Positions 1,259-62,994 of a stretch of 64,000 nucleotides of DNA are shown here, one piece after another (within the stretch, counting starts at the first letter, position 1; every line of letters begins with the position of its first letter). Below the pieces are notes generated by a model. It saw only the letters and a list, made by a program, of their open reading frames with translations. It ran no database searches and had not been told where the DNA came from. Source of the DNA: Paraescarpia echinospica (taxonomy: Eukaryota; Annelida; Polychaeta; Sabellida; Siboglinidae); the NCBI GenBank assembly GCA_020002185.1, contig CM034533.1, forward strand, positions 74,896,976 through 74,960,975, given 5' to 3'. A program made the translations under genes and the position numbers.

Positions 1259-1778
1259 AACACAGTCAAATTTACACAGTTACTACACATCTGAGTTATT
1301 GCCTGTAAAATGGAAAGGTCGAGTACCTGCAGATTTGTAGGATAATCATAGTCTGTTTTTTTCTGGTCTGTTTCCTGGAAAATCACATAAGAATATTCTG
1401 AGTGGAGGCCTGGGTGTGCATGTATTAATTTCTTATAAAACAGAAGTATTCCAAGGTAGCAAAGACAGATTCAGTACTAAACCATCAAGAGAGCGACCAG
1501 TCACAATTCTCTAACATAAGCTCAGTTATTTGACTGGTGTTAAATAGACAACCATCGCAGTAACTACAAAACATCATTTGGTTCGTTCCCACAAATATAA
1601 CAACACTGCGAAGTTAAACTAATTCTGTGAACCTTGTACTAATAATCTACAGTACAAACAACAAGAACAACAAGAATATGTTCTTATCAAACAAAACATA
1701 AATAGATATTAATAAATGAGAACATCAATTCTACTTTAAACTGTTGCTTGCAGTTTGCCAGTAAAGAAAGTGCCATAC

Positions 1779-1823
1779 CATTTGGGTCACATAGTCATAG
1801 TATTGTTTTTCGTTCTTGACGTC
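1779..1823 (-). CDS. Modular gene exon 13, last in window (DVKNEKQYYDYVTQM)
   Basis: 15 codons, phase 0. Acceptor tttgttatccag|GACGTC; donor CAAATG|GTATGG. Three tyrosines in a row-like cluster (YYDYV). There is no duplicate to support it, so it is weaker than the others. Further exons must lie left of position 1. Confidence 0.45.
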
Positions 1824-35434: not shown

Positions 35435-35500
35435 CTACAGCTTGGACTTCTTGGCAGCTTGCATCATCGGGTAGAGATGCTCATGAAAGGATGGATGCAC
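35435..35500 (-). CDS. ACOX1: ACOX1-like terminal exon with SKL peroxisome signal and stop
   Basis: 21 codons plus TAG. The acceptor is cgtgttttcag|GTGCAT. The peptide is VHPSFHEHLYPMMQAAKKSKL, lining up with the end of ACOX1 (VHESY...SKL). The final Ser-Lys-Leu is the canonical PTS1 that directs import into peroxisomes, and the Lys-Lys before it is favourable for the signal. The exon follows a 5.4-kb intron that holds the 40-bp array and a dead CR1 element. Confidence 0.92.
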   Translation of the reverse strand: MHPSFHEHLYPMMQAAKKSKL

Positions 35501-38500: not shown

Positions 38501-41500
38501 GAGGAGAGCAACTAAAATGATACCAAAACTGAGGGATCTTAGTTACGAAATGCCTAAAAAAAATGCAGCTTAACAACACTAGAGACCAGGAGATTGAGAG
38601 GAGATCAGATAGAAGTGTTTAAAATAATGAATGGTTATGAAAATATTGATAGAAATATTTGTTTCTCAGTTAAGAAAGATAGGACTAGAGGACATGCATT
38701 TAGACTATTTGTGATAGTTGCGTTCATCACTATGGATAAGTGTTTATTCCACCAAATGTACATCATGTTTTCACTCGTGTAATAACCCGCAACCTGCCGA
38801 AGAAATTCACCAATGAGCATCTGCTATGACAGCAGATCCCAGTGTAAAGAAACAGATGGATTTAGTAAGGAACATGACAGAGAAACAGACTCCACCAAAC
38901 AATGGCAATGAAACATGAAAGAAGAACTAGATGTTGCTGGGCACAGCAGCAACAAGAGTGGAAGATGAGATCTAGTGCGAGCTTTATGCACCACACCAAG
39001 GCACAAAGAGAACATTGAGGGGTGAATGTTTTACAAGTTCTCACCTGAGTCTCATTGAGGGGTTAATGTTGTACAAGTTCTCACCTGAGTCTCATTGAGG
39101 GGTTAATGTTGTACAAGTTCTCACCTGAGTCTCATTGAGGGGTTAATGTTGTACAAGTTCTCATCCGAGTCTCACTGAGGGGTTAATGTTGTACAAGTTC
39201 TCACCTGAGTCTCATTGAGGGGTTAATGTTGTACAAGTTCTCACCTGAGTCTCATTGAAGGGCGACTGTTGTACAAGTTCTCACCTGAGTCTCATTGAGG
39301 GGTTAATGTTGTACAAGTTCTCATCTGAGTCTCAATGAGGGGTGAACGTTGTACAAGTTCTCACATGAGTCTCATTGAAGGGCGACTGTTGTACAAGTTC
39401 TCACCAGAGTCTCATTGAAGGGCGACTGTTGTACAAGTTCTCATCTGAGTCTCATTGAGGGGTGAACGTTGTACAAGTTCTCACCTGAGTCTCATTGAGG
39501 GGCAACTGTTGTACAAGTTCTCACCTGAGTCTCATTGAAGGGTGAATGTTGTACAAGTTCTCACCTGAGTCTCATTGAGGGGCAACTGTTTTACAAGTTC
39601 TCACCTGAGTCTCATTGAAGGGTGAATGTTGTACAAGTTCTCATCTGAGTCTCATTGAGGGGCAAGTTTTGTACAAGTATCACCTGAGTCTCATTAAGGG
39701 GTTAATGTTTTACAAGTTCTCACCGGAGTCTCATTGAGGGGTTAATGTTTTACAAGTTCTCACCTGAGTCTCATTGAAGGGTGAATGTTGTACAAGTTCT
39801 CACCTGAGTCTCATTGAGGGGCAAGTTTTGTACAAGTTCTCACCTGAGTCTCATTGAGGGGTGAATGTTGTATAAGTTCTCACCTGAGTCTCATTGAGGG
39901 GCAAGTGTTGTACAAGTTCTCACCTGAGTCTCATTGAGGGGTGAATGTTGTACAAGTTCTCACCTGAGTCTCATTGAGGGGCAAGTGTTGTACAAGTTCT
40001 CATCTGAGTCTCATTGAGGGGTTAATGTTTTACAAGTTCTCACCTGAGTCTCATTGAAGGGTGAATGTTGTACAAGTTCTCACCTGAGTCTCATTGAGGG
40101 GCAAGTGTTGTACAAGTTCTCACCTGAGTCTCATTGAGGGTTAATGTTTTACAAGTTCTCACCTGAGTCTTATTGAGGGGCAAGTGTTGTACAAGTATCA
40201 CCTGAGTCTCATTGAGGGGTGAACGTTGTACAAGTTCTCACCTGAGTCTCATTGAAGGGTGAATGTTGTACAAGTTCTGACCTGAGTCTCATTGAGGGGC
40301 AAGTGTTGTACAAGTTCTCACCTGAGTCTCATTGAGGGGTTAATGTTTTACAAGTTCTCACCTGAGTCTCAATGAGGGGCAAGTGTTGTACAAGTTCTCA
40401 CCTGAGTCTCATTGAGGGGCAAGTGTTTTACAAGTTCTCACCTGAGTCTCATTGAGGGGCAAGTGTTGTACAAGTTCTCACCTGAGTCTCATTGAGGGGT
40501 GAACGTTGTACAAGTTCTCACCTGAGTCTCATTGAGGGGCAAGTGTTGTACAAGTTCTCACCTGAGTCTCATTGAGGGGTTAATGTTTTACAAGTTCTCA
40601 CCTGAGTCTCATTGAAGGGTGAATGTTGTACAAGTTCTCACCTGAGTCTCATTGAGGGGCAAGTGTTGTACAAGTTCTCACCTGAGTCTCTTTGAGGGGT
40701 TAATGTTTTACAAGTTCTCACCTGAGTCTCATTGAAGGGTGAATGTTGTACAAGTTCTGACCTGAGTCTCATTGAGGGGCAAGTGTTGTACAAGTTCTCA
40801 CCTGAGTCTCATTGAGGGGTTAATGTTGTACAAGTTCTCACCTGAGTCGCATTGAGGGGTTAATGTTGTACAAGTTCTCACCTGAGTCTCATTGAGGGGT
40901 TAATGTTTTACAAGTTCTCACCTGAGTCGCATTGAGGGGTGATAGTTGCGCCCATTGGTACAAGTTCTCGTACACCTGGCCATCGTAGCGACCCAGCACG
41001 CTGCCGAGAATGTGGTCGGAGATGTCGAATGCATCGACGAGAGCAACTGCATTGGGGCGAATCTTTGCAAGGAGACGGAGCATCTGGTCGTTGACAAGCT
41101 CCAGCTGTGTGGAGCTCATGAAGCCGTTCTGTCAAGAGACACACATTGCACAAGACTGAACTAGGTTGGCAGTCAAACAACATGGTCCTCTTAGAGCCTG
41201 TCTTGGGCCACCACCACCCAGCCAAAGTGGCCTCTCTAGACAGGTGACCTCCCATAACAGGTGTGTAATGAGAATAACAAGCTGTACGCGTCTGATGGAT
41301 AATGGGTTCTATCTGCACTGTGTATATTGATTTGTTGAATAATCTTCCATTCACTCATTCTTTACTAACTGTTATAGTAGTCAACATGAAATTATTGTAT
41401 ATTATTCCAATTTCCAGCTTTCTAGTCAGTTATTTTGAAGCCTGTAATGATCAAATTTTGGCTGTCTGTATGTTATGGGGGTAAAACAGTGATCACATGA

Positions 41501-44500
41501 CCAATTTAAGAGTCAGTTGGGTACATTGGACAGTTGGATGTTCTCTGGAAGCATCCAGTCTCGCTGCAATTAATGTGAGACGACTACTCGCATACAAACA
41601 TCCACCACTGTTTATAGCTAGGTACTCATTCATACAGCTGGGTTAACTCGGGCAATTTAGAGTGAACGAACTCGCCCAAGGTTCGACACCACAGCACAGG
41701 ATTCAAACCCGGGTTCTCTCGGTTGAGAGTCCAAAGCTCTATCCACTGCACTACAGCGCTCCACAAGGAGATTAGATCGAGAGGCAACAGAAGTGAGTGT
41801 GCTACTTACCTCCAGAAACTCCCCTGAGTTTGTTGTGACTCCGTAGGTGGCATACAACAGACACAGCTGTTGTAGAAGAAGCACTACATCAGCATTGACT
41901 TCAGCTTGTTGAATTCTTTGTGCGAATGTCTTCAGTACAAAGTTGTGAGAGTGTGCCTGTAAACAACAACATCACTAATCAGTATAAGTTGTGAGAGTGT
42001 GCCTGTAAACAACAACATCACTAATCAGTATAAGTTGTGAGAGTGTGCCTGTAAACAACAACAACATCACTAATCAGTATAAGTTATGAGAGTGTGCCTG
42101 TAAATAACAACATCACTAATCAGTATAAGCTGTGAGAGTGTGCCTGTAAACAACAACAACATCACTAATCAATATAAGTTGTGAGAGTGTGCCTGTAAAT
42201 AGCAACATCACTAATCAGTATAAGTTGTGAGTGTGCCTGTAAATAACAACATCACTAATCAGTATAAGTTGTGAGAGTGTGCCTGTAAACAACAACAACA
42301 TCACTAATCAGTATAAGTTGTGAGAGTGTGCATGTATATAACAACAACATCACTAATCAGTATAAGTTGTGAGAGTGTGCCTGTAAACAACATCACTAAT
42401 CAGTATAAGTTGTGAGAGTGTGCCTGTAAACAACAACATCACTAATCAGTATAAGTTGTCAGAGTGTGCCTGTAAACAACAACAACATCACTAATCAGTA
42501 TAAGTTGAGAGTGTGCCTGTAAACAACATCACTAATCAGTATAAGTTGTGAGACTGTGCCTGTAAACAACAACATCACTAATCAGTATAAGTTGTCAGAG
42601 TGTGCCTGTAAACAACAACAACATCACTAATCAGTATAAGTTGTGAGAGTGTGCCTGTAAACAACATCACTAATCAGTATAAGTTGTGAGAGTGTGCCTG
42701 TAAACAACAACATCACCAATCAGTATAAGTTGTCAGAGTGTGCCTGTAAACAACAACAACATCACTAATCAGTATAAGTTGTGAGAGTGTGCCTGTAAAC
42801 AACAACAACATCACTAATCAGTATAAGTTGTGAGAGTGTGCCTGTAAATAACAACATCACTAATCAGTATAAGTTGTGAGAGTGTGCCTGTAATTAACAA
42901 CATCATTAATCAGTATAAGTTATGAGTGTGAATGTAAATAACAACATCACTAATCAGTATAAGTTGTGAGACTGTGCCTGTAAATAACAACATCACTAAT
43001 CAGTATAAGTTGTGAGAGTGTGCCTGTAAATAACAACATCACTAATCAGTATAAGTTGTGAGAGTGTGCCTGTAAACAACAACATCACTAATCAGTATAA
43101 GTTGTGAGAGTGTGCCTGTAAATAACAACATCACTAATCAGTATAAGTTGTGAGACTGTGCCTGTAAATAACAACATCACTAATCAGTATAAGTTGTGAG
43201 ACTGTGCCTGTAAATAACAACATCACTAATCAGTATAAGTTGTGAGTGTGCCTGTAAATAACAACATCACTAATCAGTATAAGTTGTGAGAGTGTGCCTG
43301 TAAATAACAACATCACTAATCAGTATAAGTTGTGAGACTGTGCCTGTAAATAACAACATCACTAATCAGTATAAGTTGTGAGAGTGTGCCTGTAAATAAC
43401 AACATCACTAATCAGTATAAGTTGTGAGAGTGTGCCTGTAAATAACAACATCACTAATCAGTATAAGTTGTGAGAGTGTGCCTGTAATTAACAACATCAC
43501 TAATCAGTATAAGTTGTGAGAGTGTGCCTGTAAATAACAACATCACTAATCAGTATAAGTTGTGAGAGTGTGCCTGTAATTAACAACATCACTAATCAGT
43601 ATAAGTTGTGAGTGTGCCTGTAAATAACAACATCACTAATCAGTATAAGTTGTGAGACTGTGCCTGTAAATAACAACATCACTAATCAGTATAAGTTGTG
43701 AGAGTGTGCCTGTAAATAACAACATCACTAATCAGTATAAGTTGTGAGAGTGTGCCTGTAAATAACAACATCACTAATCAGTATAAGTTGTGAGACTGTG
43801 CCTGTAAATAACAACATCACTAATCAGTATAAGTTGTGAGAGTGTGCCTGTAAATAACAACATCACTAATCAGTATAAGTTGTGAGAGTGTGCCTGTAAA
43901 TAACAACATCACTAATCAATATAAGTTGTGAGACTGTGCCTGTAAATAACAACATCACTAATCAGTATAAGTTGTGAGAGTGTGCCTGTAAATAACAACA
44001 TCACTAATCAGTATAAGTTGTGAGAGTGTGCCTGTAATTAACAACATCATTAATCAGTATAAATTATGAGTGTGCCTGTAAATAACAACATCACTAATCA
44101 GTATAAGTTGTGAGACTGTGCCTGTAAATAACAACATCACTAATCAGTATAAGTTGTGAGAGTGTGCCTGTAAATAACAACATCACTAATCAGTATAAGT
44201 TGTGAGAGTGTGCCTGTAAATAACAACATCACTAATCAGTATAAGTTGTGAGAGTGTGCATGTATATAACAACAACATCACTAATCAGTATAAGTTGTGA
44301 GAGTGTGCATGTAAATAACAACAACATCACTAATCAGTATAAGTTGTGAGAGTGTGCCTGTAAATAACAACATCACTAATCAGTATAAGTTGTGAGAGTG
44401 TGCCTGTAAACAACAACAACATCACTAATCAGTATAAGTTATTTTACTGGAAATTGGTATAGTAACAATTGTTTTTTCTGATCAAAATAAAATACTGTAA

Positions 44501-47500
44501 GAATATTCAAAACAAGTAAAAAACCTGGAAGAATTAATTTTTATAATTTGTCAGTTTCTACTTTTCTTTATAGTTGTTTCAAGCATTCAACAATATTCTA
44601 TTCACTGACTGGTTTGAATATACTCTGGTTACAATGTTATGGTCTTATTAGGGAACATTACTGCCAAGTCAATCTTTTTGTGCTGGAACCGAGGGTGGTC
44701 ATTGCCAGGGTGCTTGTCGTCCTCAGGGACTGACATTAACAAACTGATGCAATCGCCATACATAATAACGGACATTAACGTGATCTCCGAGTCACGAGGA
44801 ATACAGTCCCCAATGTTGAGAGCCAGGTTTTTACACCAAATATACCATGCCTGCCCGTCCGGGTTTTGAACTCAAAGTGGTGGCATGCCAGGCGGATGTG
44901 CCAACCACGACATCACTGTACTCAAAGTGGTGGCATGCCAGGCGGATGTGCCAACCACTACATCACTGTACTCAAAGTGGTGGCATGCCAGGCGGATGTG
45001 CCAACCACTACATCACTGTACTCAAAGTGGTGGCATGCCAGGCGGATGTGTCAACCACTACATCACTGTACTCAAAGTGGTGGCATGCCAGGCGGATGTG
45101 CCAACCACTACATCACTGTACTCAAAGTGGTGGCATGCCAGGCGGATGTGTCAACCACTACATCACTCTACTCAAAGTGGTGGCATGCCAGGCGGATGTG
45201 TCAACCACTACATCACTCTACTCAAAGTGGTGACATGCCAGGCGGATGTGTCAACCATTACATCACTCTACTCAAAGTGGTGGCATGCCAGGCAGATGTG
45301 TCAACCACTACATCACTCTACTCAAAGTGGTGGCATGCCAGGCGGATGTGCCAACCACTACATCACTCTACTCAAAGTGGTGGCATGTCAGGCGGATGTG
45401 TCAACCACTACATCACTCTACTCAAAGTGGTGGCATGCCAGGCGGATGTGCCAACCACTACATCACTCTACTCAAAGTGGTGGCATGCCAGGCGGATGTG
45501 CTAACCACTACATCACTCTACTCAAAGTGGTGGCATGCCAGGCGGATGTGTCAACCACAACATCACTCTACTAAAAGTGGTGGCATGCCAGACGGATGTG
45601 CCAACCACAACATCACTCTACTAAAAGTGGTGGCATGCCAGACGGATGTGCCAACCACCACATCACTGTACTCAAAGTGGTGGCATGCCAGGCGGATGTG
45701 CCAACCACCACATCACTGTACTCAAAGTGGTGACATGCCAGGCGGATGTGCCAACCACTACATCATTGTACTCAAAGTGGTGGCATGCCAGGCGGATGTG
45801 CCAACCACTACATCGTCAGTAAGTTCAGACAGAACACTCTTGACAAAACCAGAGTGCTTAGAGTACTTCCATCCTTACCTTGGCTGCGAGCACAAGGTGT
45901 ACACCAGCCTTGTTCCAAGCATTGTAGTCAGCATCTCCAGCTTGTAGGCATCTCTCATACATCCTGGCTGCCTTCTGCACTGCTCTGAAACAGACAGTGT
46001 GCAATGAGGACAGCTTGTCTTTGAGCAGTCCAGTGTTATACACTGTGCGAACCAGATGCTAAATGTGATCTGGACGGTTAAACTAATATCACATAAATTG
46101 TGAGAGAAACTATTAACAGCGGAGTGTCTGAGGAAATGACTGCAAAGTAGCAGAATTAAACAACATTTGGAGAATAAATACCACAAGATCAGAGTCAATA
46201 AACCCAGACGGAAAAAAAAAACACCTTCGAAAGAACAATTAACAATTTACAAAAAAATCTCATTACAGTAGTCCCTCTCTTCAACAGACCCTCTGACGAG
46301 TGGACACCCAGTTTGTCAATGTACAGACCGTTCTGCCATGTTAATGTCCCTCTGATGAGGGGACACCTCGTGTACGCGGACAGGATATTTTGGTTATATG
46401 TCCCTCCTAAGACGGACAGTATTCATTAATTCAAATTTTTTGCCGAATTTGTTTAGAAAATGGCGGACATACAGCTCGGTGAGTGTCAATGGTAACACCA
46501 AGTACACGTGTACCCATAACAACGAGCTTGTCGTCCTTGCTGTAATCACTGTTTGTCCAAACTACTTAGAGTTCCTTTGATTACTGTCTGTAAACTTTAA
46601 GCTGAGTGAATGTGGAGGAAGGTATTGTTAATTTTGAGCTGTTATCAATCACGTTTGCCAGCGGTGATGCCATGATGGCTTCCCCATTCCTGCCTCCAGC
46701 CCCAGTCAGGGCTGCTGCTGCCTTTTCATCTTGTAAATTGCAATTAAGATTCACAAATACAATGAATAAAAGGTTCACCTCAATTATTTTCAATGTAGCC
46801 CAACATTGAGCCTAAACTGAGGTGAACTAATAAAGAAGCATCATCACATTATGCTGCGCTACGCCAAACGGCAAACATTACAGTACTAGTGCCTGAAAAA
46901 GATGAACTGGTCGCCAGTGTATGAAACGGTGCAACACATTATCAAGTGACGTACAATTTGTGCATTAATGAATCTTTCGAAATTGAATGAAAACTGTTGT
47001 GAAACAATTAATGATTGTACCCTCAGTGCCAGCATAGAAAGGTCGGCTTGGCGATAATGTTCTGAAAAAGGCTGACTAGTTGAATGAGACCTCATAAGAT
47101 CATAACATTGTAACCACACAATATACAGACTAGTCAGTTAATAGAACGTTGCCGAGTGCTGGAAACAACTAGAACTAGAACTAGAAGAGAGGGACTACTG
47201 TACATTTAAAATAACTCATTACATTTACTCATTATTACTCATTTACTGTCAAACAATTATGATATAATCATTACCATTATAACCATCAAAACTTTGATGA
47301 CATCCACTGACACACCCGTCTCACCAATTGTACCTGTATACTCTCCATTCGTAAGACTTCAGGAGTGCGTCAATTGTCACTGGGCTTGTGACACAACACC
47401 TGTCATCACACACCTGTGACAGGTAGGCCATTGAGCCACTCAGTGTGACACCTTTCTGTACTCGCAGCAACGCTTTCACCAGAGACCTGAAAACAGACGT

Positions 47501-50500
47501 ATAATTAATATAGTTTATTTCAACAAACAATCCACATATACACATCATGATTAAAACTGAAATATATCTGTAGGTATAGACAGACACGCATTAAAAATAC
47601 TAAACAGCATATATTAATATGCAAAGGATGAGTGAAAATGGACAAGTTAAATAATAATATAGGCAGTGACGAGTAATAAAAATAATGAAAATAATGTAGA
47701 GTACAAAATTATTTAAATAATAAAAAATATAAATATGACATGGACAGCTCACAAAGTAACAACATGCTGTCACATATCTCATGTCAAGCAAGAATGAACT
47801 CAACAAATAAAAGTGGTTCTACATTGTGTGACATTCTATGGACATCGTTAAAACAATCCACAAGATGGCAGCAATAAAAGATGGCATTAAACTGGAGTGT
47901 AACTTAAAAATATCCAAATGCCATCCAAAGTTGGGAGGCTCCAACATTAATGAAGTGTCTAAAAATGAGGCCAAATGACATGTATGGATGAATTCTGATT
48001 CTAGCTCCATACAGTGGAGTGATGTGATGTGCCTAGGTCTCTCTTCTGCTTCCTCCTTTCGACACCTAGGCATATCACTCAAGTCTATTCCACCTTTTTG
48101 ATGATACTTTTCAACAATCATTCTTCTGCAATTTCACCTACTCTTGCCTGTTCACCCTGCCATAAAAAAGATATCAAGATTGCCTTTTAGGACATGATCG
48201 GCTCCTGAGGAAGCCATTCACATCAATCGCAGCCATTGCTGGCCAGTTTTGGTTTTTTTTAAATAAAAAACCAGTCATTTGAGCCATTGATTTAATACTG
48301 CTCCATCTGGTTTGTTTCACTACCAGTTGTGACAATAATAGTCATTAATGTGGGACTCTAGATTTAGAACTATTAGTTAATGTAGTGGCCAGTTGGCCGC
48401 CTCTAAAATTCCACCAGTCTTATCAGTTGTAATTACCCATGTTGGCCAGTCATCTGCCAGTCTTGAAGATGGGTCTCTGGCTAAGCCCATTTGATTCTAA
48501 GAGGTATATACTGTTTCAACGACATTGGTTATACATTCACTGGTAATGGCTATCAGTGTGCGGTGTTCTCCTCCCACACTGAATGTACAGCACCGTGTTC
48601 TTACCTTCCACACTGAACATACAGCAATGTGTTCTCACCTTCCACACCGAATGTACAGCACCGTGTTCTTACCTTCCACACTGAACGTACAGCATTGTGT
48701 TCTTACCTTCCACACTGAATGTACAGCACCGTGTTCTTACCTTCCACACTGAATGTACAGCAATGTGTTCTCACCTTCCACACTGAACGTACAGCATCGT
48801 GTTCTTACCTTCCACACTGAACGTACAGCATTGTGTTCTTACCTTCCACACTGAATGTACAGCACCGTGTTCTTACCTTCCACACTGAATGTACAGCACC
48901 GTGTTCTTACCTTCCACACTGAACGTACAGCATTGTGTTCTTACCTTCCACACTGAATGTACAGCACCGTGTTCTCACCTTCCACACTGAACGTACAGCA
49001 TCGTGTTCTTACCTTCCACACTGAATGTACAGCACCGTGTTCTTACCTTCCACACTGAACGTACAGCATTGTGTTCTCACCTTCCACACTGAATGTACAG
49101 CATCATGTTCTTACCTTCCACACTGAACTTACAGCAATGTGTTCTTACCTTCCACACTGAATGTACAGCACCATGTTCTCACATTCCACACTGAATGTAC
49201 AGCATTGTGTTCTCACATTCCACATTGAATGTACAGCATTGCGTTCTCACCTTCCACACTGAACGTACAGCAATGCGTTCTCACCTTCCACACTGAATGT
49301 ACAGCACTGTGTTCTCACTTCCCACACTGAATGTACAGCACTGTGTTCTCACTTCCCACACTAAATGTACAGCACCGTTTTCTCACCTTCTACACTGAAT
49401 GTACAGCAATGTGTTCTCATCTTCCACACTGAATGTACAGCAATGTGTCCTCATCTTCCACACGGAATGTACAGCAATGTATTATCATGTTCCACAGTGA
49501 ATGTACAGCATTGTGTTCTCACGTTCCACATTGAATGTACATCAATATATTCTCATGTTCCACACTGAATGTACAGCACTGTGTTCTCACCTTCCACACT
49601 GAATGTACAGCAGAGTTCTCACCTTCCACAATGAATGTACAGCATCTTGTTCTCACCTCCCACACTGAATGTACAGCATCGTGTTCTCACCTCCCACACT
49701 GAATGTACAGCATCGTGTTCTCACCTTCTACACTGAATGTACAGCATCGTGTTCTCACCTCCCACACTGAATGTACAGCACTGTGTTTTCACCTTTCACA
49801 CTGAATGTACAGCAACATGTTCTCACCACCCACAATGAATGTACAGCACCGTCTTCTCACCTTCCACACTGAATGTACAGCAATGAGTTCTCACCTTCCA
49901 CACTGAATGTACAGCAATGAGTTCTCACCTTCCACACTGAATGTACAGCAATGAGTTCTCACCTTCCACACTGAATGTACAACAATGAGTTCTCACCTTC
50001 CACAGTGAATGTACAGCATCGTGTTCTCACCTACCACACTGAATGTACAGCACGTGTTTTCACCTTTCACACTGAATGTACAGCACCGTGTTCTCACCTC
50101 CCACACTGAATGTACAGCAACGGGTTCTCACCTTCCACACTGAATGTACAGCACGTGTTTTCACCTTTCACACTGAATGTACAGCAGTGTTCTCACCTCC
50201 CACACTGAATGTACAGCACTGTGTTCTCACCTCCCACACTGAATGTACAGCACCGTGTTCTCACCTCCCACACTGAATGTACAGCACTGTGTTCTCACCT
50301 CCCACACTGAATGTACAGCACCGGGTTCTCACCTTCCACACTGAATGTATTGCACTGCGTTCTCACCTTCCACACTGAATGTACAGCATTGTGTTCTCAC
50401 CTTCCACACTGAATGTACTGCACCGTGTTCTCACCTCCCACACTGAATGTACAGCACTGTGTTCTCACCTCCCACACTGAATGAACAGCACCGTGTTCTC

Positions 50501-53500
50501 ACCTCCCACACTGAATGTACAGCACTGTGTTCTCACCTCCCACACTGAATGTACAGCACCGGGTTCTCACCTTCCACACTGAATGTACTGCACTGCGTTC
50601 TCACCTTCCACACTGAATGTACTGCACTGCGTTCTCACCTTCCACACTGAATGTACAGCATCGTGTTCTCACCTCCCACACTGAATGTACAACATCGTGT
50701 TCTCACCTTCCACACTGAATGTACTGCAATGTGTTCTCACCTTCCACACTGAATGTACAGCAATGAGTTCTCACCTTCCACACTGAATGTACAGCATTGT
50801 GTTCTCACCTTCCACACTGAATGTACAGCACTGTGTTTTCACCTTTTAAACTGAATGTACAGCACCGTGTTCTCAACTTCCACACTAATATACAGCAATG
50901 TGTTCTCACCTTCCACACTGAATGTACAGCATTGTGTTCTCACCTTCCACACTGAATGTACAGCATCATGTTCTTACCTTCCACACTGAACTTACAGCAA
51001 TGTGTTCTTACCTTCCACACTGAATGTACAGCACCATGTTCTCACATTCCACACTGAATGTACAGCATTGTGTTCTCACATTCCACACTGAATGTACAGC
51101 ATTGCGTTCTCACCTTCCACACTGAACGTACAGCAATGCGTTCTCACCTTCCACACTGAATGTACAGCACTGTGTTCTCACTTCCCACACTGAATGTACA
51201 GCACTGTGTTCTCACTTCCCACACTAAATGTACAGCACCGTTTTCTCACCTTCTACACTGAATGTACAGCAATGTGTTCTCATCTTCCACACTGAATGTA
51301 CAGCAATGTGTCCTCATCTTCCACACTGAATGTACAGCAATGTATTATCATGTTTCACAGTGAATGTACAGCATTGTGTTCTCACGTTCCACATTGAATG
51401 TACATCAATATATTCTCGTTCCACACTGAATGTACAGCACTGTGTTCTCACCTTCCACACTGAATGTACAGCAGAGTTCTCACCTTCCACACTGAATGTA
51501 CAGCATTTTGTTCTCACCTCCCACACTGAATGTACTGCACTGTGTTCTCACCTCCCACACTGAATGTACAGCACTGTGTTCTCACCTCCCACACTGAATG
51601 TACAGCACCGGGTTCTCACCTTCCACACTGAATGTACTGCACTGCGTTCTCACCTTCCACACTGAATGTACTGCACTGCGTTCTCACCTTCCACACTGAA
51701 TGTACAGCATCGTGTTCTCACCTCCCACACTGAATGTACAACATCGTGTTCTCACCTTCCACACTGAATGTACTGCAATGTGTTCTCACCTTCCACACTG
51801 AATGTACAGCAATGAGTTCTCACCTTCCACACTGAATGTACAGCATTGTGTTCTCACCTTCCACACTGAATGTACAGCACTGTGTTTTCACCTTTTAAAC
51901 TGAATGTACAGCACCGTGTTCTCAACTTCCACACTAATATACAGCAATGTGTTCTCACCTTCCACACTGAATGTACAGCATTGTGTTCTCACCTTCCACA
52001 CTGAATGTACAGCATCATGTTCTTACCTTCCACACTGAACTTACAGCAATGTGTTCTTACCTTCCACACTGAATGTACAGCACCATGTTCTCACATTCCA
52101 CACTGAATGTACAGCATTGTGTTCTCACATTCCACACTGAATGTACAGCATTGCGTTCTCACCTTCCACACTGAACGTACAGCAATGCGTTCTCACCTTC
52201 CACACTGAATGTACAGCACTGTGTTCTCACTTCCCACACTGAATGTACAGCACTGTGTTCTCACTTCCCACACTAAATGTACAGCACCGTTTTCTCACCT
52301 TCTACACTGAATGTACAGCAATGTGTTCTCATCTTCCACACTGAATGTACAGCAATGTGTCCTCATCTTCCACACTGAATGTACAGCAATGTATTATCAT
52401 GTTTCACAGTGAATGTACAGCATTGTGTTCTCACGTTCCACATTGAATGTACATCAATATATTCTCGTTCCACACTGAATGTACAGCACTGTGTTCTCAC
52501 CTTCCACACTGAATGTACAGCAGAGTTCTCACCTTCCACACTGAATGTACAGCATTTTGTTCTCACCTCCCACACTGAATGTACAGCATCGTGTTCTCAC
52601 CTCCCACACTGAATGTACAGCATCGTGTTCTCACCTTCTACACTGAATGTACAGCATCGTGTTCTCACCTCCCACACTGAATGTACAGCACTGTGTTTTC
52701 ACCTTTCACACTGAATGTACAGCAACATGTTCTCACCACCCACACTGAATGTACAGCACCGTTTTCTCACCTTCCACACTGAATGTACAGCAATGAGTTC
52801 TCACCTTCCACACTGAATGTACAGCAATGAGTTCTCACCTTCCACACTGAATGTACAGCAATGAGTTCTCACCTTCCACACTGAATGTACAACAATGAGT
52901 TCTCACCTTCCACAGTGAATGTACAGCATCATGTTCTCACCTTCCACACTGAATGTACAGCACGTGTTTTCACCTTTCACACTGAATGTACAGCACCGTG
53001 TTCTCACCTCCCACACTGAATGTACAGCAACGGGTTCTCACCTTCCACACTGAATGTACAGCACGTGTTTTCACCTTTCACACTGAATGTACAGCACAGT
53101 GTTCTCACCTCCCACACTGAATGTACAGCATTGTGTTCTCACCTCCCATACTGAATGTACAGCACCGTGTTCTCACCTCCCACACTGAATGTACAGCACT
53201 GTGTTCTCACCTCCCACACTGAATGTACAGCACCGGGTTCTCACCTTCCACACTGAATGTACTGCACTGCGTTCTCACCTTCCACACTGAATGTACAGCA
53301 TTGTGTTCTCACCTTCCACACTGAATGTACAGCACCGTGTTCTCACCTCCCACACTGAATGTACAGCACTGTGTTCTCACCTCCCACACTGAATGTACAG
53401 CACCGTGTTCTCACCTCCCACACTGAATGTACAGCACTGTGTTCTCACCTCCCACACTGAATGTACAGCACCGGGTTCTCACCTTCCACACTGAATGTAC

Positions 53501-56500
53501 TGCACTGCGTTCTCACCTTCCACACTGAATGTACTGCACTGCGTTCTCACCTTCCACACTGAATGTACAGCATTGTGTTCTCACCTTCCACACTGAATGT
53601 ACAGCACGTGTTTTCACCTTTCACACTGAATGTACAGCACCGTGTTCTCACCTCCCACACTGAATGTACAGCACTGTGTTCTCACCTCCCACACTGAATG
53701 TACAGCACCGGGTTCTCACCTTCCACACTGAATGTACTGCATTGCGTTCTCACCTTCCACACTGAATGTACTGCACTGCGTTCTCACCTTCCACACTGAA
53801 TGTACAGCACCGTGTTCTCACCTTCCTCACTAATATACAGCATTGTGTTCTCACCTTCCACACTGAATGTACAGCGCTGTGTTCTCACCTTCCACACTGA
53901 ATGTACAGCACCTTGTTCTCACCTTCCACACTAATATACAGCAATGTGTCCTCATCTTCCACACTGAATGTACAGCAATGTATTCTCATGTTCCACAGTG
54001 AATGTACAGCACTGTGTTCTCACTTCCCACGCTAAATGTACAGCACCGTTTTCTCACCTTCTACACTGAATGTACAGCAATGTGTTCTCATCTTCCACAC
54101 TGAATGTACAGCAATGTGTCCTCATCTTCCACACTGAATGTACAGCAATGTGTCCTCATCTTCCACACTGAATGTACAGCATTGTGTTCTCACGTTCCAC
54201 ATTGAATGTACATCAATATATTCTCATGTTCCACAGTGAATGTACAGCATTGTGTTCTCACCTTCCACACTGAATGTACATCAATATATTCTCATGTTCC
54301 ACAGTGAATGTACAGCATTGTGTTCTCACGTTCCACATTGAATGTACATCAATATATTCTCATGTTCCACAGTGAATGTACAGCACTGTGTTCTCACCTT
54401 CCACACTGAATGTACAGCAATGAGTTCTCACCATCCATGCTGAATGTACAGCATCGTGTTCTCACCTCCCACACTGAATGTACAGCATCGTGTTCTCACC
54501 TTCCACACTGAATGTACAGCATCGTGTACTCACCTCCCACACTGAATGTACAGAACCATGTTCTCACCTTCCACACTGAATGTACAGCACTGTGTTCTCA
54601 CTTCCCACACTGAATGTACAGCAATGTGTTCTCACATTCCACACTGAATGTATAGCAATGTGTCCTCATCTTCCACACTGAATGTACAGCAATGTATTCT
54701 CATGTTCCACAGTGAATGTACAGCATTGTGTTCTCATGTTATACATTGAATGTACATCAATATATTCTCATTTTCCACACTGAATGTACAGCACTGTGTT
54801 CTCACCTTCCACACTGAATGTACAGCAATGAGTTCTCACCTTCCACACTGAATGTACAGCAATGAGTTCTCACCTTCCACACTGAATGTACATCAATGAG
54901 TTCTCACCTTCCACACTGAATGTACAGCATCGTGTTCTCACCTTCCACACTGAATGTACAGCATCGTGTTCTCACCTCTCACACTTAATGTACAGCATCG
55001 TGTTCTCACCTTCCACACTGAATGTACAGCATCGTGTTCTCACCTTCCACACTGAATGTACAGCATCGTATACTCACCTCCCACACTGAATGTACAGAAC
55101 CATGTTCTCACCTTATACACTGAATGTACAGCACTGTGTTCTCACTTCCCACACTGAATGTACAGCATTGTGTTCTCACCTTCCACATTGAATGTACATC
55201 AATATATTCTCATTTTCCACACTGAATGTACATCACTGTGTTCTCACCTTCCACACTGAATGTACTGCAATGTGTTCTCACCTTCCACACTGAATGTACA
55301 GCAATGAGTTCTCACCTTCCACACTGAATGTACAGCATTGTGTTCTCACCTTCCACACTGAATGTACAGCACTGTGTTTTCACCTTTTAAACTGAATGTA
55401 CAGCACCGTGTTCTCAACTTCCACACTAATATACAGCAATGTGTTCTCACCTTCCACACTGAATGTACAGCATTGTGTTCTCACCTTCCACACTGAATGT
55501 ACAGCACTGTGTTCTCACCTCCCACACTGAATGTACTGCACTGTGTTCTCACCTCCCACACTGAATGTACAGGAATGTGTTCTCACCTCCCACACTGAAT
55601 GTACTGCTCTGTGTTCTCACCTCCCACACTGAATGTACAGCACCATGTTCTCACCTTCCACACTGAAAGTACAGCAATGTGTTCTCACCTTCCACATTGA
55701 ATGTACAGCTCTGTGTTCTCACTTCCCACACTGAATTTACAGCACCGTGTTCTCACTTTCCACACTAATATACTGCAATGTGTTCTCACCTCCCACACTG
55801 AATGTATAGCACCGTGTTCTTACCTTCCACACTGAATGTACAGCACCGTGTTCTCACCTTCCACACTGAATGTACAGCACCGTGTTCTCACCTTCCACAC
55901 TGTATGTACTGCAATGTGTTCTCACCTCCCACACTGAACGTACAACACCATGTTCTCACCTTCCACACTGAATGTACTGCACTGTGTTCTCACCTCCCAC
56001 ACTGAATGTACAGCAATGTGTTCTCACCTCCCACACTGAATGTACATCACCATGTTCTCACCTTCCACACTGAATGTACTGCACTGTGTTCTCACTTCCC
56101 ACACTGAATGTACAGCACCATGTTCTCACCTTCCACACTGAAAGTACAGCAACGTGTTCTCACCTTCCACATTGAATGTACAGCTCTGTGTTCTCACTTC
56201 CCACACTGAATTTACAGCACCGTGTTCTCACTTTCCACACTAATATACTGCAATGTGTTCTCACCTCCCACACTGAATGTATAGCACCGTGTTCTTACCT
56301 TCCACACTGAATGTACAGCACCGTGTTCTCACCTTCCACACTGAATGTACAGCACCGTGTTCTCACCTTCCACACTGTATGTACTGCAATGTGTTCTCAC
56401 CTCCCACACTGAACGTACAACACCATGTTCTCACCTTCCACACTGAATGTACTGCACTGTGTTCTCACCTCCCACACTGAATGTACAGCAATGTGTTCTC

Positions 56501-59500
56501 ACCTCCCACACTGAATGTACAGCACCATGTTCTCACCTTCCACACTGAATGTACTGCACTGTGTTCTCACTTCCCACACTGAATGTACTGCACTGTGTTC
56601 TCACCTCCCACACTGAATGTACAGGAATGTGTTCTCACCTCCCACACTGAATGTACAACACTGTGTTCTCACCTCTCACACTGAATGTACTGCACTGTGT
56701 TCTCACCTCCCACACTGAATGTACAGCAATGTGTTCTCACCTCCCACACTGAATGTACAGCACCATGTTCTCTCCTTCCACACTGAATGTACTGCACTGT
56801 GTTCTCACCTCCCACACTGAATGTACTGCACTGTGTTCTCACCTCCCACACTGAATGTACTGCACTGTGTTCTCACCTCCCACACTGAATGTACAGCACC
56901 ATGTTCTCACCTTCCACACTGAATGTACTGCACTGTGTTCTCACCTCCCACACTGAACGTACAGCAATGTGTTCTCAACTCACACACTGAATGTACTGCT
57001 CTGTGTTCTCACCTCCCACACTGAAAGTACAGCAATGTGTTCTCACCTTCCACACTGAATGTACAGCAATGTATTCTCATGTTCCACAGTGAATGTACAG
57101 CATTGTGTTCTCATGTTATACATTGAATGTACATCAATATATTCTCATTTTCCACACTGAATGTACAGCACTGTGTTCTCACCTTCCACACTGAATGTAC
57201 AGCAATGAGTTCTCACCTTCCACACTGAATGTACAGCAATGAGTTCTCACCTTCCACACTGAATGTACATCAATGAGTTCTCACCTTCCACACTGAATGT
57301 ACAGCATCGTGTTCTCACCTTCCACACTGAATGTACAGCATCGTGTTCTCACCTTCCACACTGAATGTACAGCATCGTGTTCTCACCTCTCACACTTAAT
57401 GTACAGCATCGTGTTCTCACCTTCCACACTGAATGTACAGCATCGTGTTCTCACCTTCCACACTGAATGTACAGCATCGTATACTCACCTCCCACACTGA
57501 ATGTACAGAACCATGTTCTCACCTTATACACTGAATGTACAGCACTGTGTTCTCACTTCCCACACTGAATGTACAGCATTGTGTTCTCACCTTCCACATT
57601 GAATGTACATCAATATATTCTCATTTTCCACACTGAATGTACATCACTGTGTTCTCACCTTCCACACTGAATGTACTGCAATGTGTTCTCACCTTCCACA
57701 CTGAATGTACAGCAATGAGTTCTCACCTTCCACACTGAATGTACAGCATTGTGTTCTCACCTTCCACACTGAATGTACAGCACTGTGTTTTCACCTTTTA
57801 AACTGAATGTACAGCACCGTGTTCTCAACTTCCACACTAATATACAGCAATGTGTTCTCACCTTCCACACTGAATGTACAGCATTGTGTTCTCACCTTCC
57901 ACACTGAATGTACAGCACTGTGTTCTCACCTCCCACACTGAATGTACAGGAATGTGTTCTCACCTCCCACACTGAATGTACTGCTCTGTGTTCTCACCTC
58001 CCACACTGAATGTACAGCACCATGTTCTCACCTTCCACACTGAAAGTACAGCAATGTGTTCTCACCTTCCACATTGAATGTACAGCTCTGTGTTATCACT
58101 TCCCACACTGAATTTACAGCACCGTGTTCTCACTTTCCACACTAATATACTGCAATGTGTTCTCACCTCCCACACTGAATGTATAGCACCGTGTTCTTAC
58201 CTTCCACACTGAATGTACAGCACCGTGTTCTCACCTTCCACACTGAATGTACAGCACCGTGTTCTCACCTTCCACACTGTATGTACTGCAATGTGTTCTC
58301 ACCTCCCACACTGAACGTACAACACCATGTTCTCACCTTCCACACTGAATGTACTGCACTGTGTTCTCACCTCCCACACTGAATGTACAGCAATGTGTTC
58401 TCACCTCCCACACTGAATGTACATCACCATGTTCTCACCTTCCACACTGAATGTACTGCACTGTGTTCTCACTTCCCACACTGAATGTACTGCACTGTGT
58501 TCTCACCTCCCACACTGAATGTACAGGAATGTGTTCTCACCTCCCACACTGAATGTACAACACTGTGTTCTCACCTCTCACACTGAATGTACTGCACTGT
58601 GTTCTCACCTCCCACACTGAATGTACAGCAATGTGTTCTCACCTCCCACACTGAATGTACAGCACCATGTTCTCTCCTTCCACACTGAATGTACTGCACT
58701 GTGTTCTCACCTCCCACACTGAATGTACTGCACTGTGTTCTCACCTCCCACACTGAATGTACTGCACTGTGTTCTCACCTCCCACACTGAATGTACAGCA
58801 CCATGTTCTCACCTTCCACACTGAATGTACTGCACTGTGTTCTCACCTCCCACACTGAACGTACAGCAATGTGTTCTCAACTCACACACTGAATGTACAA
58901 CACTGTGTTCTCACCTCCCACACTGAATGTACTGCACTGTGTTCTCACCTCCCACACTGAATGTACAGCACCATGTTCTCACCTTCCACACTGAATGTAC
59001 TGCACTGTGTTCTCACCTCCCACACTGAACGTACAGCAATGTGTTCTCAACTCACACACTGAATGTACAACACTGTGTTCTCACCTCCCACACTGAATGT
59101 ACTGCACTGTGTTCTCACCTCCCACACTGAATGTACAGCACCATGTTCTCACCTTCCACACTGAATGTACTGCACTGTGTTCTCACCTCCCACACTGAAT
59201 GTACTACACTGTGTTCTCACCTCCCACACTGAATGTACAGGAATGTGTTCTCTCCTCCCACACTGAATGTACAGCAATGTGTTCTCACCTCCCACATTGA
59301 ATGTAGAGCACCGTGTTCTCGCCCTCATACGTACAGGCGGGCACAGCATGGGCATAGATCTTGGGCAGCCCACTGGCCTGGGAGAAGCCGTGGCCCCCAC
59401 AGGCCAAGCGACATGTCTCCAGCGACCACATCATGAGGTCTGTGGTGAACGCCTTCAGCCCACACGAGAGGCTGTGGATCTGGAAGGAAGAGATCAAGCA

Positions 59501-61620: not shown

Positions 61621-62994
61621 AGTGAACAGAATGCACCAATTCTAAACAATCTAGGAAACCAGACGCAGAAGTAGCCGTGTTGAGTTTGCCTACCTCAACC
61701 TGAAGCTATACATTGTTCCTGCTGGATGTCATAGTTTGCCTACCTCCACCAAAAGTTGTACATTACCCTGCTGGATGTCATACTTTGCTTACCTGAGCCA
61801 GAAGTTCTACATTACCCTGCTGGATGTCATAGTTTGCCTACCTCTACCAAAAGTTCTACATTACCCTGCTGGATGTCATAGTTTGCCTACCTCTACCAAA
61901 AGTTGTACATTACCCTGCTGGATGTCATACTTTGCTTACCTGAGCCAGAAGTTCTACATTACCCTGCTGGATGTCATAGTTTGCCTACCTCCACCAAAAG
62001 TTGTACATTACCCTGCTGGATGTCATACTTTGCTTACCTGAGCCAGAAGTTCTACATTACCCTGCTGGATGTCATAGTTTGCCTACCTCCACCAAAAGTT
62101 CTACATTACCCTGCTGGATGTCATACTTTGCTTTTACCTGAGCCAGAAGTTCTACATTACCCCTGCTGGATGCCGTCATAGTTTGCCTAATTTCTCTACC
62201 AAAAGTTCTGGCTACATTACCCCGTTGATGTCATAGGTTTGCCTACCTCTACCAAAGTTGTACATTACCCGTTGATGTCATACTTTGCTTACCTGAGCCA
62301 GAAGTTCTACATTACCCTGCTGGATGTCATAGTTTGCCTACCTCTACCAAAAGTTGTACATTACCCTGCTGGATGTCATACTTTGCTTACCTGAGCCAGA
62401 AGTTCTACATTACCCTGCTGGATGTCATAGTTTGCCTACCTCCACCAAAAGTTGTACATTACCCTGCTGGATGTCATACTTTGCTTACCTGAGCCAGAAG
62501 TTCTACATTACCCTGCTGGATGTCATAGTTTGCCTACCTCGGCCAGAAGTTCTACATTACCCTGCTGGATGTCATAGTTTGCCTACCTGAGCCAGAAGTT
62601 CTACATTAATCTGCTGGATGTCAGAGTTTGCCTACCTCGGCCAGAAGTTCTACATTACCCTGCTGGATAACATAGTTTGCCTACCTCAGCCAGAAGTTCT
62701 ACATTGCCCTGCTGAATAACATAGTTTGCCTACCTCGGCCAGAAGTTCTACATTGCCCTGCTGAATAACATAGTTTGCCTACCTCGGCCAGAAGTTCTAC
62801 ATTACCCTGTTGGATAACATAGTTTGCCTACCTCAGCCAGAAGTTCTACATTGCCCTGCTGAATGTCGTAGTTGAAACGGAAGTAAAGGTCTCTCAGATG
62901 GAGACCAACGGCAGAGACAGCATAGGCCTCCGCGAGAACGGGAAACAACTTGTACTGCTGCGTCACGTAGTCGAGAATCTGAGGCTCTACACCA
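35435..62994 (-). CDS. ACOX1: Peroxisomal acyl-CoA oxidase 1-like gene, seven 3' exons (5' part outside window)
   Basis: Acyl-CoA oxidase catalyses the first, H2O2-producing step of peroxisomal fatty-acid beta-oxidation, using FAD to make trans-2-enoyl-CoA. Exons on the minus strand: 62994-62832, 59479-59289, 47486-47334, 45984-45879, 41956-41810, 41128-40922 and 35500-35435. All have AG/GT borders and join in phase, giving about 341 residues against roughly 660 for the animal enzyme, so the N-terminal half lies beyond 64000. In order the product shows EPQILDY..TQQYKLFP, CGGHGFS, TYEGENTV (its first Glu matches the catalytic base of the family), LCLLYATYG, ALVDAFDISDHILGSVLGRYDG, and a C-terminal SKL (PTS1). 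ACOX1 fits better than ACOX2 or ACOX3 because of the DAFD..LGSVLGRYDG and QILDY segments. Four of six introns carry minisatellites anchored on a splice junction. No frameshift or stop is seen in any exon, so the gene is probably functional. Confidence 0.93.
35501..36240. other. Last ACOX intron, AT-rich part and probable CR1 5' UTR
   Basis: AT-rich to about 36000, then sequence leading into the CR1 ORF1 start at 36245. The exact 5' end of the element is not defined. Confidence 0.45.
36245..38790 (+). pseudogene. Degenerate CR1-like non-LTR retrotransposon
   Basis: ORF1 opens at 36245 with a cysteine-rich PHD-like start (VCDHCHSWVDF..SGCGKSW..FQCIGC), then a long Lys/Glu-rich low-complexity stretch. 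An esterase/SGNH-hydrolase domain follows (SILVHVGTNNADREGTTG, QIILSGILPV, DLWGYFVG, RDGLHLSGKGA), ending at 37458. Its catalytic GDS block is GES followed by a stop near 36973. Reverse transcriptase follows immediately (NYRPVSLTSVICKLLEKLI, QKAFDKVPHERLL, GVPQGSVLGPILFLIYVNDL, KFADDTKVF) with stops and frameshifts. The apurinic endonuclease that should precede RT is missing, so an internal deletion has joined ORF1 to mid-ORF2. It lies antisense in the last intron of the ACOX1-like gene. Confidence 0.88.
39013..40971 (-). repeat. 40-bp junction-spanning minisatellite, about 48 units, each with a 5' splice site
   Basis: Minus-strand unit: CCCCTCAATGAGACTCAG|GTGAGAACTTGTACAACATTAA (bar marks the donor). 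The real exon F end reads CCCCTCAATGCGACTCAG|GTGAGAAC, so the functional junction at 40922/40921 is the first member. The unit corresponds to the last 50 bp of exon F shortened by about 10 bp. Confidence 0.96.
40922..41128 (-). CDS. ACOX1: ACOX1-like exon F (LGSVLGRYDG)
   Basis: 207 bp, 69 codons, phase 0. The acceptor is ctcttgacag|AACGGC and the donor GCGACTCAG|GTGAGAAC. The peptide begins NGFMSSTQLELVNDQMLR and continues through ALVDAFDISDHILGSVLGRY to YENLYQWAQLSPLNATQ, the strongest ACOX1 match in the window. Its 3' end is the likely seed of the 40-bp array in the following intron. The donor GTGAGAACTTGT resembles the exon's own coding sequence ACGAGAACTTGT (codons Tyr-Glu-Asn-Leu). Confidence 0.97.
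41520..41765 (-). mobile_element. tRNA-derived SINE in intron E-F
   Basis: The minus-strand head reads agcgctgtagtgcagtggat agagctttgg, then B-box gggtttgaatcctgtg (41695-41710). The core ggtactcattcatacagctg is shared with the SINEs at 27425 and 16035. Confidence 0.75.
41810..41956 (-). CDS. ACOX1: ACOX1-like exon E
   Basis: 147 bp, 49 codons, phase 0 at both ends. The acceptor is tgtttacag|GCACAC and the donor CTGGAG|GTAAGT. The peptide begins AHSHNFVLKTFAQRIQQAE and ends LCLLYATYGVTTNSGEFLE, a close match to the ACOX1 LCLLYSLYGISQNAGDFLQ region. The first 17 bases of this exon and its acceptor are repeated in each unit of the 46-bp array lying immediately upstream in transcript order. Confidence 0.95.
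41941..44442 (-). repeat. 46-bp junction-spanning minisatellite, about 54 units, each with a 3' splice site
   Basis: Minus-strand unit: TAGTGATGTTGTTATTTACAG|GCACACTCTCACAACTT. The part after the bar is the first 17 bases of exon E, and the part before it is the polypyrimidine tract and AG acceptor. The functional acceptor (41957/41956) is the last unit in transcript order. Length variants come from caa or gag loss. Confidence 0.96.
44443..44830. other. Intron D-E, unassigned part
   Basis: AT-rich on the left; from about 44640 (ggtcttattagggaacatta) more GC-rich and TE-like. Nothing identified. Confidence 0.4.
44840..45815. repeat. 50-bp minisatellite, about 19 units, seeded in a SINE-like sequence
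   Basis: Unit tggcatgccaggcggatgtg, ccaaccactacatcactgta, ctcaaagtgg. The left edge reads cccgtccgggttttgaactc, resembling a B-box of a tRNA-derived SINE, so the array probably grew out of a SINE head. Open in all plus frames by periodicity. Confidence 0.92.
45879..45984 (-). CDS. ACOX1: ACOX1-like exon D
   Basis: 106 bp: one base finishing the split Arg codon, then 35 codons ending AAG|GTAAGG. The acceptor is tctgtttcag. The peptide is AVQKAARMYERCLQ..NAWNKAGVHLVLAAK, matching the ACOX1 helix with the WN..SVDLVRASEAH pattern. It joins in phase to exon E (AHSHNFVLKTF). The intron to exon C is only 1.35 kb and holds a TIR element. Confidence 0.9.
46266..47200. mobile_element. 935-bp TIR element, pogo/Tigger-like
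   Basis: CAGTAGTCCCTCTCTTC at 46266-46282 is exactly repeated inverted at 47184-47200, with TA on both flanks (46264-46265, 47201-47202). The interior has the ggacac/gtccctc motifs common in such MITEs but no recognisable transposase. It sits in the short intron between ACOX exons C and D. Confidence 0.85.
47334..47486 (-). CDS. ACOX1: ACOX1-like exon C
   Basis: 153 bp in phase 2 at both ends. The acceptor is tgttttcag|G and the donor TACAG|GTACAA. The joined codon AG+G gives Arg, then SLVKALLRVQKGVTLSGSMAYLSQ and SPVTIDALLKSYEWRVY. It aligns with the ACOX1 stretch that starts RFLMKSY and ends in the AYKLRAAR helix, but is less conserved than its neighbours, as usual for this linker. It is separated from exon B by an intron of about 11.8 kb made almost entirely of the 34-bp array. 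Confidence 0.9.
47487..48560. other. Intron B-C, non-array part, with a possible transposase remnant
   Basis: Mostly AT-rich. On the minus strand at about 48060-48121 a short stretch reads VEKYHQKGGIDLSDM, reminiscent of the GGVDLSD block of piggyBac-type transposases; too short for a firm call. Confidence 0.25.
48562..59322 (-). repeat. 34-bp junction-spanning minisatellite, about 315 units (10.7 kb), each with a 5' splice site
   Basis: Minus-strand unit: GTGAGAACACGGTGCTGTAC followed by ATTCAGTGTGGAAG (or GGGAG), then the next GTGAGAAC. The last 34 bp of ACOX exon B are the first unit (29/34 identical to the adjoining intronic unit). Large internal duplications have offsets of 1049 bp (51314/52363), 475 bp (55802/56277) and 1902 bp (56277/58179). 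Confidence 0.97.
59289..59479 (-). CDS. ACOX1: ACOX1-like exon B (CGGHGFS and catalytic-Glu motif)
   Basis: 191 bp, 63 codons plus two bases (AG), completed by G of exon C. The acceptor is ttccttccag and the donor is GGGAG|GTGAGAAC. The peptide runs IHSLSCGLKAFTTDLM, ETCRLACGGHGFSQASGLPK, then ACTYEGENTVLYIQCG. The Glu of YEG corresponds by family knowledge to the general base that abstracts the alpha proton (Glu421 in rat ACOX). The last 34 bp of this exon are the apparent seed of the 10.7-kb, 34-bp array that begins at the donor: exon and first intron unit agree at 29 of 34 positions. Confidence 0.95.
59480..59690. other. Intron A-B, unassigned part
   Basis: Unique-looking sequence upstream of exon B; includes its branch and acceptor region (ctgcttcatttgcttgatct...ccttccag on the minus strand). 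Confidence 0.5.
59705..59990. repeat. 35-bp minisatellite, about 8 units
   Basis: Unit gtagagggggtgttcagggt followed by ggcgcatggatgaac. Confidence 0.96.
60051..61456. repeat. 33-bp minisatellite, about 42 units
   Basis: Unit accatggcaatgacatacct followed by atatagcctagag. On the transcribed (minus) strand each unit contains TATAG|GTATGTCA, a consensus-like 5' splice site, but no exon edge matches it here. Several hundred codons are open on both strands owing to the 33-bp period. Confidence 0.97.
61587..61618. repeat. (AT)n microsatellite
   Basis: About 30 bp of pure alternating AT. Confidence 0.95.
61684..62880 (-). repeat. 49-bp junction-spanning minisatellite, about 23 units, each with a 5' splice site
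   Basis: Minus-strand unit: CAGGGTAATGTAGAACTTCTGGC + CGAG|GTAGGCAAACTATG. The end of ACOX exon A (CAGGGCAATGTAGAACTTCT, GGCTGAG) is the first member. Units alternate between ccaccaaaagtt and gagccagaagtt types in the left half. Units at 62140-62275 are irregular with many small indels. Confidence 0.95.
62832..62994 (-). CDS. ACOX1: ACOX1-like exon A (EPQILDY segment)
   Basis: 163 bp: one base that completes a codon split with the upstream exon, then 54 codons. The acceptor is ttttgcag at 62995-63002 and the donor is GAG|GTAGGC. The peptide starts GVEPQILDYVTQQYKLFPV and ends NYDIQQGNVELLAE, matching the helical domain that follows the beta domain in ACOX1. The last roughly 40 bp of the exon reappear in every unit of the 49-bp array that fills the start of the next intron. 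This is the most 5' exon of the gene inside the window. Confidence 0.93.

Follow-up and report, generated by a model that had tools for sequence, protein, structure and literature searches.

The stretch analysed here comprises 64,000 nucleotides of contig CM034533.1 (assembly GCA_020002185.1, positions 74,896,976 to 74,960,975) and is called the window. Its minus strand carries exons 8 to 14 of a peroxisomal acyl-CoA oxidase (ACOX) gene, and four introns of this gene hold long tandem arrays built from the edge of the adjoining exon. All data come from one assembly. The window exons join in frame, the last one was located by tblastn using relatives, and the 5′ half of the gene lies on this contig within the following 25 kb. 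The complete gene spans 53.2 kb, with 14 exons separated by 13 GT-AG introns, and the model encodes 668 residues from Met to SKL. Pfam ACOX domains were found in three of the seven open frames around the window exons and in none of the other four. The best match of the full protein in the PDB is the acyl-CoA oxidase 1is2 (residues 10-660), which we take to be the rat enzyme. Glu421 of 1is2, presumably the catalytic base, aligns with E431 of the present protein, where it sits in the motif YEGEN. By its full-length homology, the Glu in YEGEN and the C-terminal SKL, the gene fits an ACOX1 peroxisomal acyl-CoA oxidase. The exons and exon-edge arrays are, in the order of transcription (a vertical bar marks the exon-intron junction, or the join between exons):

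62832..62994, minus strand, ACOX exon 8 (exon A)
61683..62831, minus strand, donor-side array of intron 8: 49-bp unit, 24 units, each with the last 42 bp of exon 8 followed by GTAGGCA
59289..59479, minus strand, ACOX exon 9 (exon B): last 38 bases, from the catalytic Glu codon, match the array
48563..59288, minus strand, donor-side array of intron 9: 34-bp unit, 317 units, GT at 276 of 316 junctions
47334..47486, minus strand, ACOX exon 10 (exon C): joined in frame to exon 9 (IQCGR|SLVK)
45879..45984, minus strand, ACOX exon 11 (exon D)
41957..44440, minus strand, acceptor-side array of intron 11: 46-bp unit, 54 units, with TTTACAG|GCACACTCTCACAACTT (acceptor and exon 12 start)
41810..41956, minus strand, ACOX exon 12 (exon E)
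40922..41128, minus strand, ACOX exon 13 (exon F)
39013..40921, minus strand, donor-side array of intron 13: 40-bp unit, 48 units, with exon 13 end and donor
35435..35500, minus strand, ACOX exon 14, the last: ends in ...AKKSKL and the stop (peroxisomal targeting signal)

Arrays derived from the exon edges of the oxidase gene

A preliminary description of this DNA had reported about 315 copies of the end of exon 9 over 10.7 kb at the junction of exons 9 and 10. The position is borne out by the in-frame exons, the Pfam ACOX domains and the Tandem Repeats Finder (TRF) call of 48563-59320 (period 34, 317.2 copies, 88% matches). The intronic portion measures 10,726 bp (48563-59288), begins at the first base past exon 9, and splits into 317 units, the final one partial. 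The size thus stands, but the units are not uniform: 104 are distinct among the 293 of full length, and the mean identity to the consensus is 0.922. As had been stated, the final 34 bases of exon 9 and the first 34 bases of intron 9 are identical at 29 of 34 positions. The exon and the array match with a score of 26, whereas 1000 shuffles of this edge of the exon reached 13 at most. The array had been placed right after the region of the catalytic Glu; in fact the 38 copied exon bases begin with the E431 codon itself. Nor does each unit regenerate GGGAG|GTGAGAAC, which is found exactly at only 76 places, whereas AGGTGAGAAC is matched at 203 (the true junction is counted in both). At the unit junctions GT is retained in 276 of 316 and AG|GT in 242 of 316.

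Within the intron 9 array, exact repeats of 1043 bp, 637 bp and 474 bp occur at offsets of 1049, 2411 and 1902, respectively. If the assembly is correct there, these kb-scale repeats suggest that the growth of the array is partly recent. Exact repeats of this size are also a typical trouble spot for assemblers, and the length or position of the array could in principle be an artefact. This is extremely unlikely, given the number of distinct units, the presence of four arrays in one gene, and three chaperonin exons with such a structure on two other contigs. A search of the assembly found exon 9 in a single copy.

The array at exon B is real, yet it is an incomplete account of the locus, for three more ACOX exon edges, one of them on the acceptor side, and exons of chaperonin genes carry such copies. 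Four arrays of the oxidase gene derive from the adjoining exon edge, three on the donor side (introns 8, 9 and 13) and one on the acceptor side (intron 11). Their edge scores for introns 8, 9, 13 and 11 are 36, 26, 22 and 20, the highest shuffle scores being 18, 13, 14 and 15 (1000 shuffles per edge). The match between exon and array spans 38 exon bases for intron 9 and, with gaps, 48 for intron 13. AG|GT is present at 22 of the 23 junctions of array 8 and at 39 of the 47 of array 13 (arrays are numbered by intron), and array 11 retains TTACAG, and likewise AG, at 49 of 53. About 0.5 to 3.5 kb of non-array sequence is left in each of the four introns. The remaining four of the eight arrays in or reaching the window have edge scores of 7-11, inside the shuffle range.

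Over the whole gene, 15 arrays were counted (TRF rows of score at least 100, the four overlapping rows at 60044-61470 being merged), with a summed length of about 27.4 kb. Only the four exon-edge arrays overlap an exon. The others score 6-13 against all 28 exon ends, a comparison made without a shuffle control. Under random seeding over collapsed introns, 0.45-0.60 arrays would be expected to overlap an exon, and the probability of at least four among 15 is 0.0006-0.002.

Decoy splice sites within the arrays

None of the decoy sites tested leads to an open frame, whether donors (0 of 276 in array 9, 0 of 22 in array 8, 0 of 42 in array 13) or acceptors (0 of 49 in array 11). The first stop after a decoy donor comes after one codon in array 9, where TGA follows at once, and after 9 and 10 codons in arrays 8 and 13, respectively. 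After a decoy acceptor it comes at 7 codons for 44 of the 49 sites and at 3 to 24 for the others. The preliminary description had left two choices, reliable use of the first donor, or interchangeable donors of which only the outermost gives an open frame. The point about the open frame is correct. Interchangeable donors are ruled out at the level of the mRNA, since not one of the 276 decoys of array 9 stays open.

By calculated pairing with U1, three of the 316 decoys of array 9 are better than the real exon 9 donor, 79 are equal and 234 are worse; in array 13 none is better and 35 of 47 are equal. The mean conservation of splice columns and of other columns is 0.931 and 0.920 in array 9, 0.949 and 0.941 in array 13, and 0.986 and 0.986 in array 11. 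Column conservation thus gives no sign of selection on the decoy signals in arrays 9, 11 and 13, and the decoys are read as neutral because their splice columns vary about as much as the remaining columns. It has to be considered that the donor array is functional, its roughly 276 GT sites serving as a landing strip for the U1 small nuclear ribonucleoprotein that guards a long intron against premature cleavage, or as a poison-splicing throttle on expression. The abundance of GT junctions, the decoys whose U1 pairing equals or exceeds that of the real donor, and the entirely conserved splice columns of array 8 would suit such a role. However, the donor columns of arrays 9 and 13 vary about as much as their neighbours, the acceptor array of the same gene would require a different function, and 11 further arrays in the gene touch no exon. 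A function of this kind is unlikely.

Units might also act as recursive or dual-specific splice sites through which the intron is removed stepwise. In favour of this, CAG|GTAAGC or CAG|GTGAGA stands in most units of array 13 and in some of array 8. The consensus of array 9, however, has no clear pyrimidine tract before AAG|GT by eye, and a normal intron would not fit into its 34-base unit. Polyubiquitin (UBC) genes do have tandem dual-specific sites, with AG|GT likewise at the unit borders (PMC10809524); there, the units are coding and variably included, whereas all decoys tested here lead to a stop. Stepwise removal is very unlikely.

The right site occupies opposite positions in the two kinds of array. 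In the donor arrays it is transcribed first and lies farthest from the acceptor, whereas the acceptor array has it transcribed last and farthest from the donor. Neither the order of synthesis nor the shortest intron therefore fits both, whereas nearness to the exon, that is, the shortest exon, does.

Chaperonin exons, known structures and neighbouring features

A second sample was drawn from chaperonin (PF00118) matches in the same assembly, 52 in total, of which 50 were taken with 1.5-kb flanks. The test covered 62 exon matches, 14 of ACOX and 48 of chaperonins, at a score cut-off of at least 17, and the genome-wide count is that of these 62 from one oxidase gene and chaperonin genes. Four matches of a second chaperonin copy on contig C9, including L022 and L033, which were among the 50, were excluded. 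Eleven of the 52 matches have internal stops and two (L006 and L007) lie in long intronless open frames; some may be pseudogenes, and all except those of the C9 copy were retained. Part of the exon is copied into the flanking 1.5 kb in seven of the 62, comprising the four ACOX exons and three chaperonin exons on two other contigs (L026 on the donor side, L027 and L038 on the acceptor side). All seven best copies start or end at the edge of the exon match and are situated in the flank on the side of that edge. In the ACOX exons this edge coincides with the splice junction. In L038, L026 and L027 it is set by the profile match, which on our reading runs past the junction by 1, 3 and 9 bases, respectively. 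In L027, TTTCAG|ATCATGGTAGAACACCC stands in a 54-bp unit with about seven repeats, and in L038, TCTGTAG|GTGGCATGTGG stands in a 65-bp unit with 3.8 copies. In L026 the exon end and donor recur as one long copy, plus one partial copy by eye. An earlier run on 44 exon loci had given 6 positives, with 5 of 300 control pairs passing. In L035, a 59-bp array of TTTTGCAG|GGCACTGTGTTGAT (575-1114) apparently holds the acceptor and the start of a neighbouring chaperonin exon; the overlap of that exon with the array is about 14 bp, and as an extra 63rd row it falls below the cut-off.

Two further observations concern the chaperonin loci. At L012, a 126-bp array of 11.7 copies (1706-3173) follows a chaperonin exon, beginning with base 2 of the intron; it contains no exon sequence, and the copies viewed lack GT at that position. 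On contig C9 of the assembly (G000), two chaperonin gene copies with equal or nearly equal match scores lie about 83 kb apart, near 12.29 and 12.37 Mb.

The type of structure has a precedent. Mirages are tandem repeats across exon-intron boundaries, described in amphioxus Adh3 and later in globins (BflGb6, BflGb9) and PGBD5, and regular splicing of the Adh3 and globin genes was reported to be undisturbed (PMC3087553, PMC3902484). As in mirages, the present units hold exon sequence over the boundary, lie at either the 5′ or the 3′ boundary, and keep AG/GT in many though not all cases, so that these arrays appear to belong to the same class. Amphioxus mirages are the closest known structures, and the present arrays are far larger: haplotypes of BflGb6 are described with 6 and 3 units, compared with 317 units over 10.7 kb here and four arrays in one gene. 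The hosts also differ, mirages being found in cephalochordates whereas the present gene groups with annelids. In the literature searched, largely non-subscription and partly in excerpt, no case of exon-edge repeats outside cephalochordates was found. Large tandem arrays do occur in annelid introns, as in the minisatellites of intron 1 of earthworm metallothionein (PMC12783039), and a 27-bp minisatellite is reported from an abalone intron; neither is described as copies of an exon edge in the accessible text.

Among the 120 matches listed, none exceeds 55% identity to the ACOX protein; Capitella reaches 54% and Branchiostoma 50%. In a full-length tree of 24 rows picked from the listed matches plus the window protein, it groups with Paralvinella, Capitella and further rows (97/93). 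A clade with the two Branchiostoma rows (identity 48-50%) was rejected by the approximately unbiased test (p=0.005); on identity and this test, amphioxus is rejected as the host. The same kind of test also rejected (p 0.0003) a clade uniting the window gene with the named annelids, molluscs, nemerteans and brachiopod, but this says little, since rows that group with the annelids were left outside. A first tree of the C-terminal half placed the gene without a resolved position. Provisionally, the 97/93 group makes an annelid placement of the gene likely.

Other repeats and open frames accompany the oxidase exons. The 33-bp array at 60044-61470 has a unit containing a donor-like ATATAG|GTATGT and no above-chance match to an ACOX exon edge. 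In intron 11, a 50-bp array of 19 copies (44870-45814) resembles partial copies of a tRNA-like short interspersed nuclear element, the remainder of which seemingly lies at the far end by eye. Intron 13 harbours, on the plus strand at 36976-38336, a broken retroelement without long terminal repeats, whose GDSL-like and reverse transcriptase pieces lie in different open frames. Another 20 open frames beyond the ACOX exons were scanned with Pfam: three carry domains, all taken as one retroelement, and the other 17 carry none; only the longer frames were searched, and other genes in 1-35 kb are possible. A 48-bp array of 34 copies (2745-4378) has a plus-strand open frame of 591 codons, either coding or due to chance. 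Two arrays at 14950-15603 and 18552-19699, about 3.6 kb apart, have a common 30-bp purine-rich unit, and open frames of equal length lie beside them, as if a larger segment had been duplicated.

Origin of the arrays and choice of the splice site

Duplication of exonic AGGT segments is a known model for intron gain (Rogers model, as cited in PMC3087553), in which exon sequence is likewise turned into new splice signals. The first bases of introns 9 and 13 are mostly copies of upstream coding sequence, in keeping with such an event; indeed, with 38 and 48 exon bases covered by the match, the intron half of the donor is mostly such a copy. However, each array here touches one intron end only, and an array in that position lengthens an intron rather than creating one. 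Besides the non-array sequence left in these introns, the consensus of array 9 matches the start of exon 10 with a score of 10, inside the shuffle range. Intron gain as the meaning of the arrays is quite unlikely, and intron birth by AGGT duplication in its proper form, with both intron ends duplicated, is ruled out by arrays that lie at one end.

Exon-edge minisatellites of this gene probably arose by neutral tandem duplication across exon-intron junctions, and were tolerated since exon definition would pick the exon-proximal site. A short duplication over the junction would copy the end (or start) of the exon together with the splice signal. For introns 9 and 13, the duplication may have ended at the junction, in which case the start of the copy would serve as the new donor and the old donor would move downstream. 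The outermost copy would keep the old mRNA, and the duplication would thus be tolerated. Inside the intron the array could then expand through slippage, unequal exchange and block duplication, with copies that are not under selection. The spliceosome would take the exon-proximal copy, most simply by exon definition, that is, by pairing across the shortest exon, and use of any other copy would lead to a premature stop. A downstream 5′ splice site is reported to aid the recruitment of factors to the upstream acceptor (PMC8724738). The anatomy, the exon origin, the loss of frame, the lack of any sign of selection on decoys in three of the four arrays and the exact kb-scale repeats are read from the sequence; the order of these events, the site used in vivo and exon definition as the rule are what we infer.

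Several points weigh against this account. Array 8 departs from the others, as its splice columns show complete conservation (1.000, compared with 0.926 in the other columns, among 18 full-length units of which 10 are distinct), and its U1 pairing is better than that of the real donor in 7 of 23 decoys and equal in 14 of 23; judged from these columns, selection on its decoys is possible. The use of the exon-proximal site is deduced from sequence. Enrichment was tested post hoc, the finding itself having pointed to this gene, and the array at 59708-59987 is borderline: its edge score of 11, the best among 14 edges, was also reached by 5 of 1000 shuffles. The chaperonin sample gave 3 of 48, and the control for the test of 62 exon matches is not clean: 15 of 473 pairs of exon and flank from different loci were above the cut-off. 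At least 5 of the 12 passes inspected are neighbouring exons with overlapping stretches; the others score 17-21.

A bolder proposal, tentative and on balance doubtful, is that exon edges are hot spots of minisatellite birth here, and that arrays of up to about 300 competing sites are kept in check by strict exon definition or even serve as U1 landing strips that protect long introns. If true, intron growth seeded by splice sites would be present in a second, independent lineage.

The oxidase gene offers a natural competition experiment, with 276 GT sites after the right donor and 49 AG sites before the right acceptor in the same gene. Nearness to the exon is the only simple rule seen to fit both the donor and the acceptor arrays. 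Our analysis suggests that duplication across an exon edge may be a general route of intron growth, extended from amphioxus to a probable annelid.

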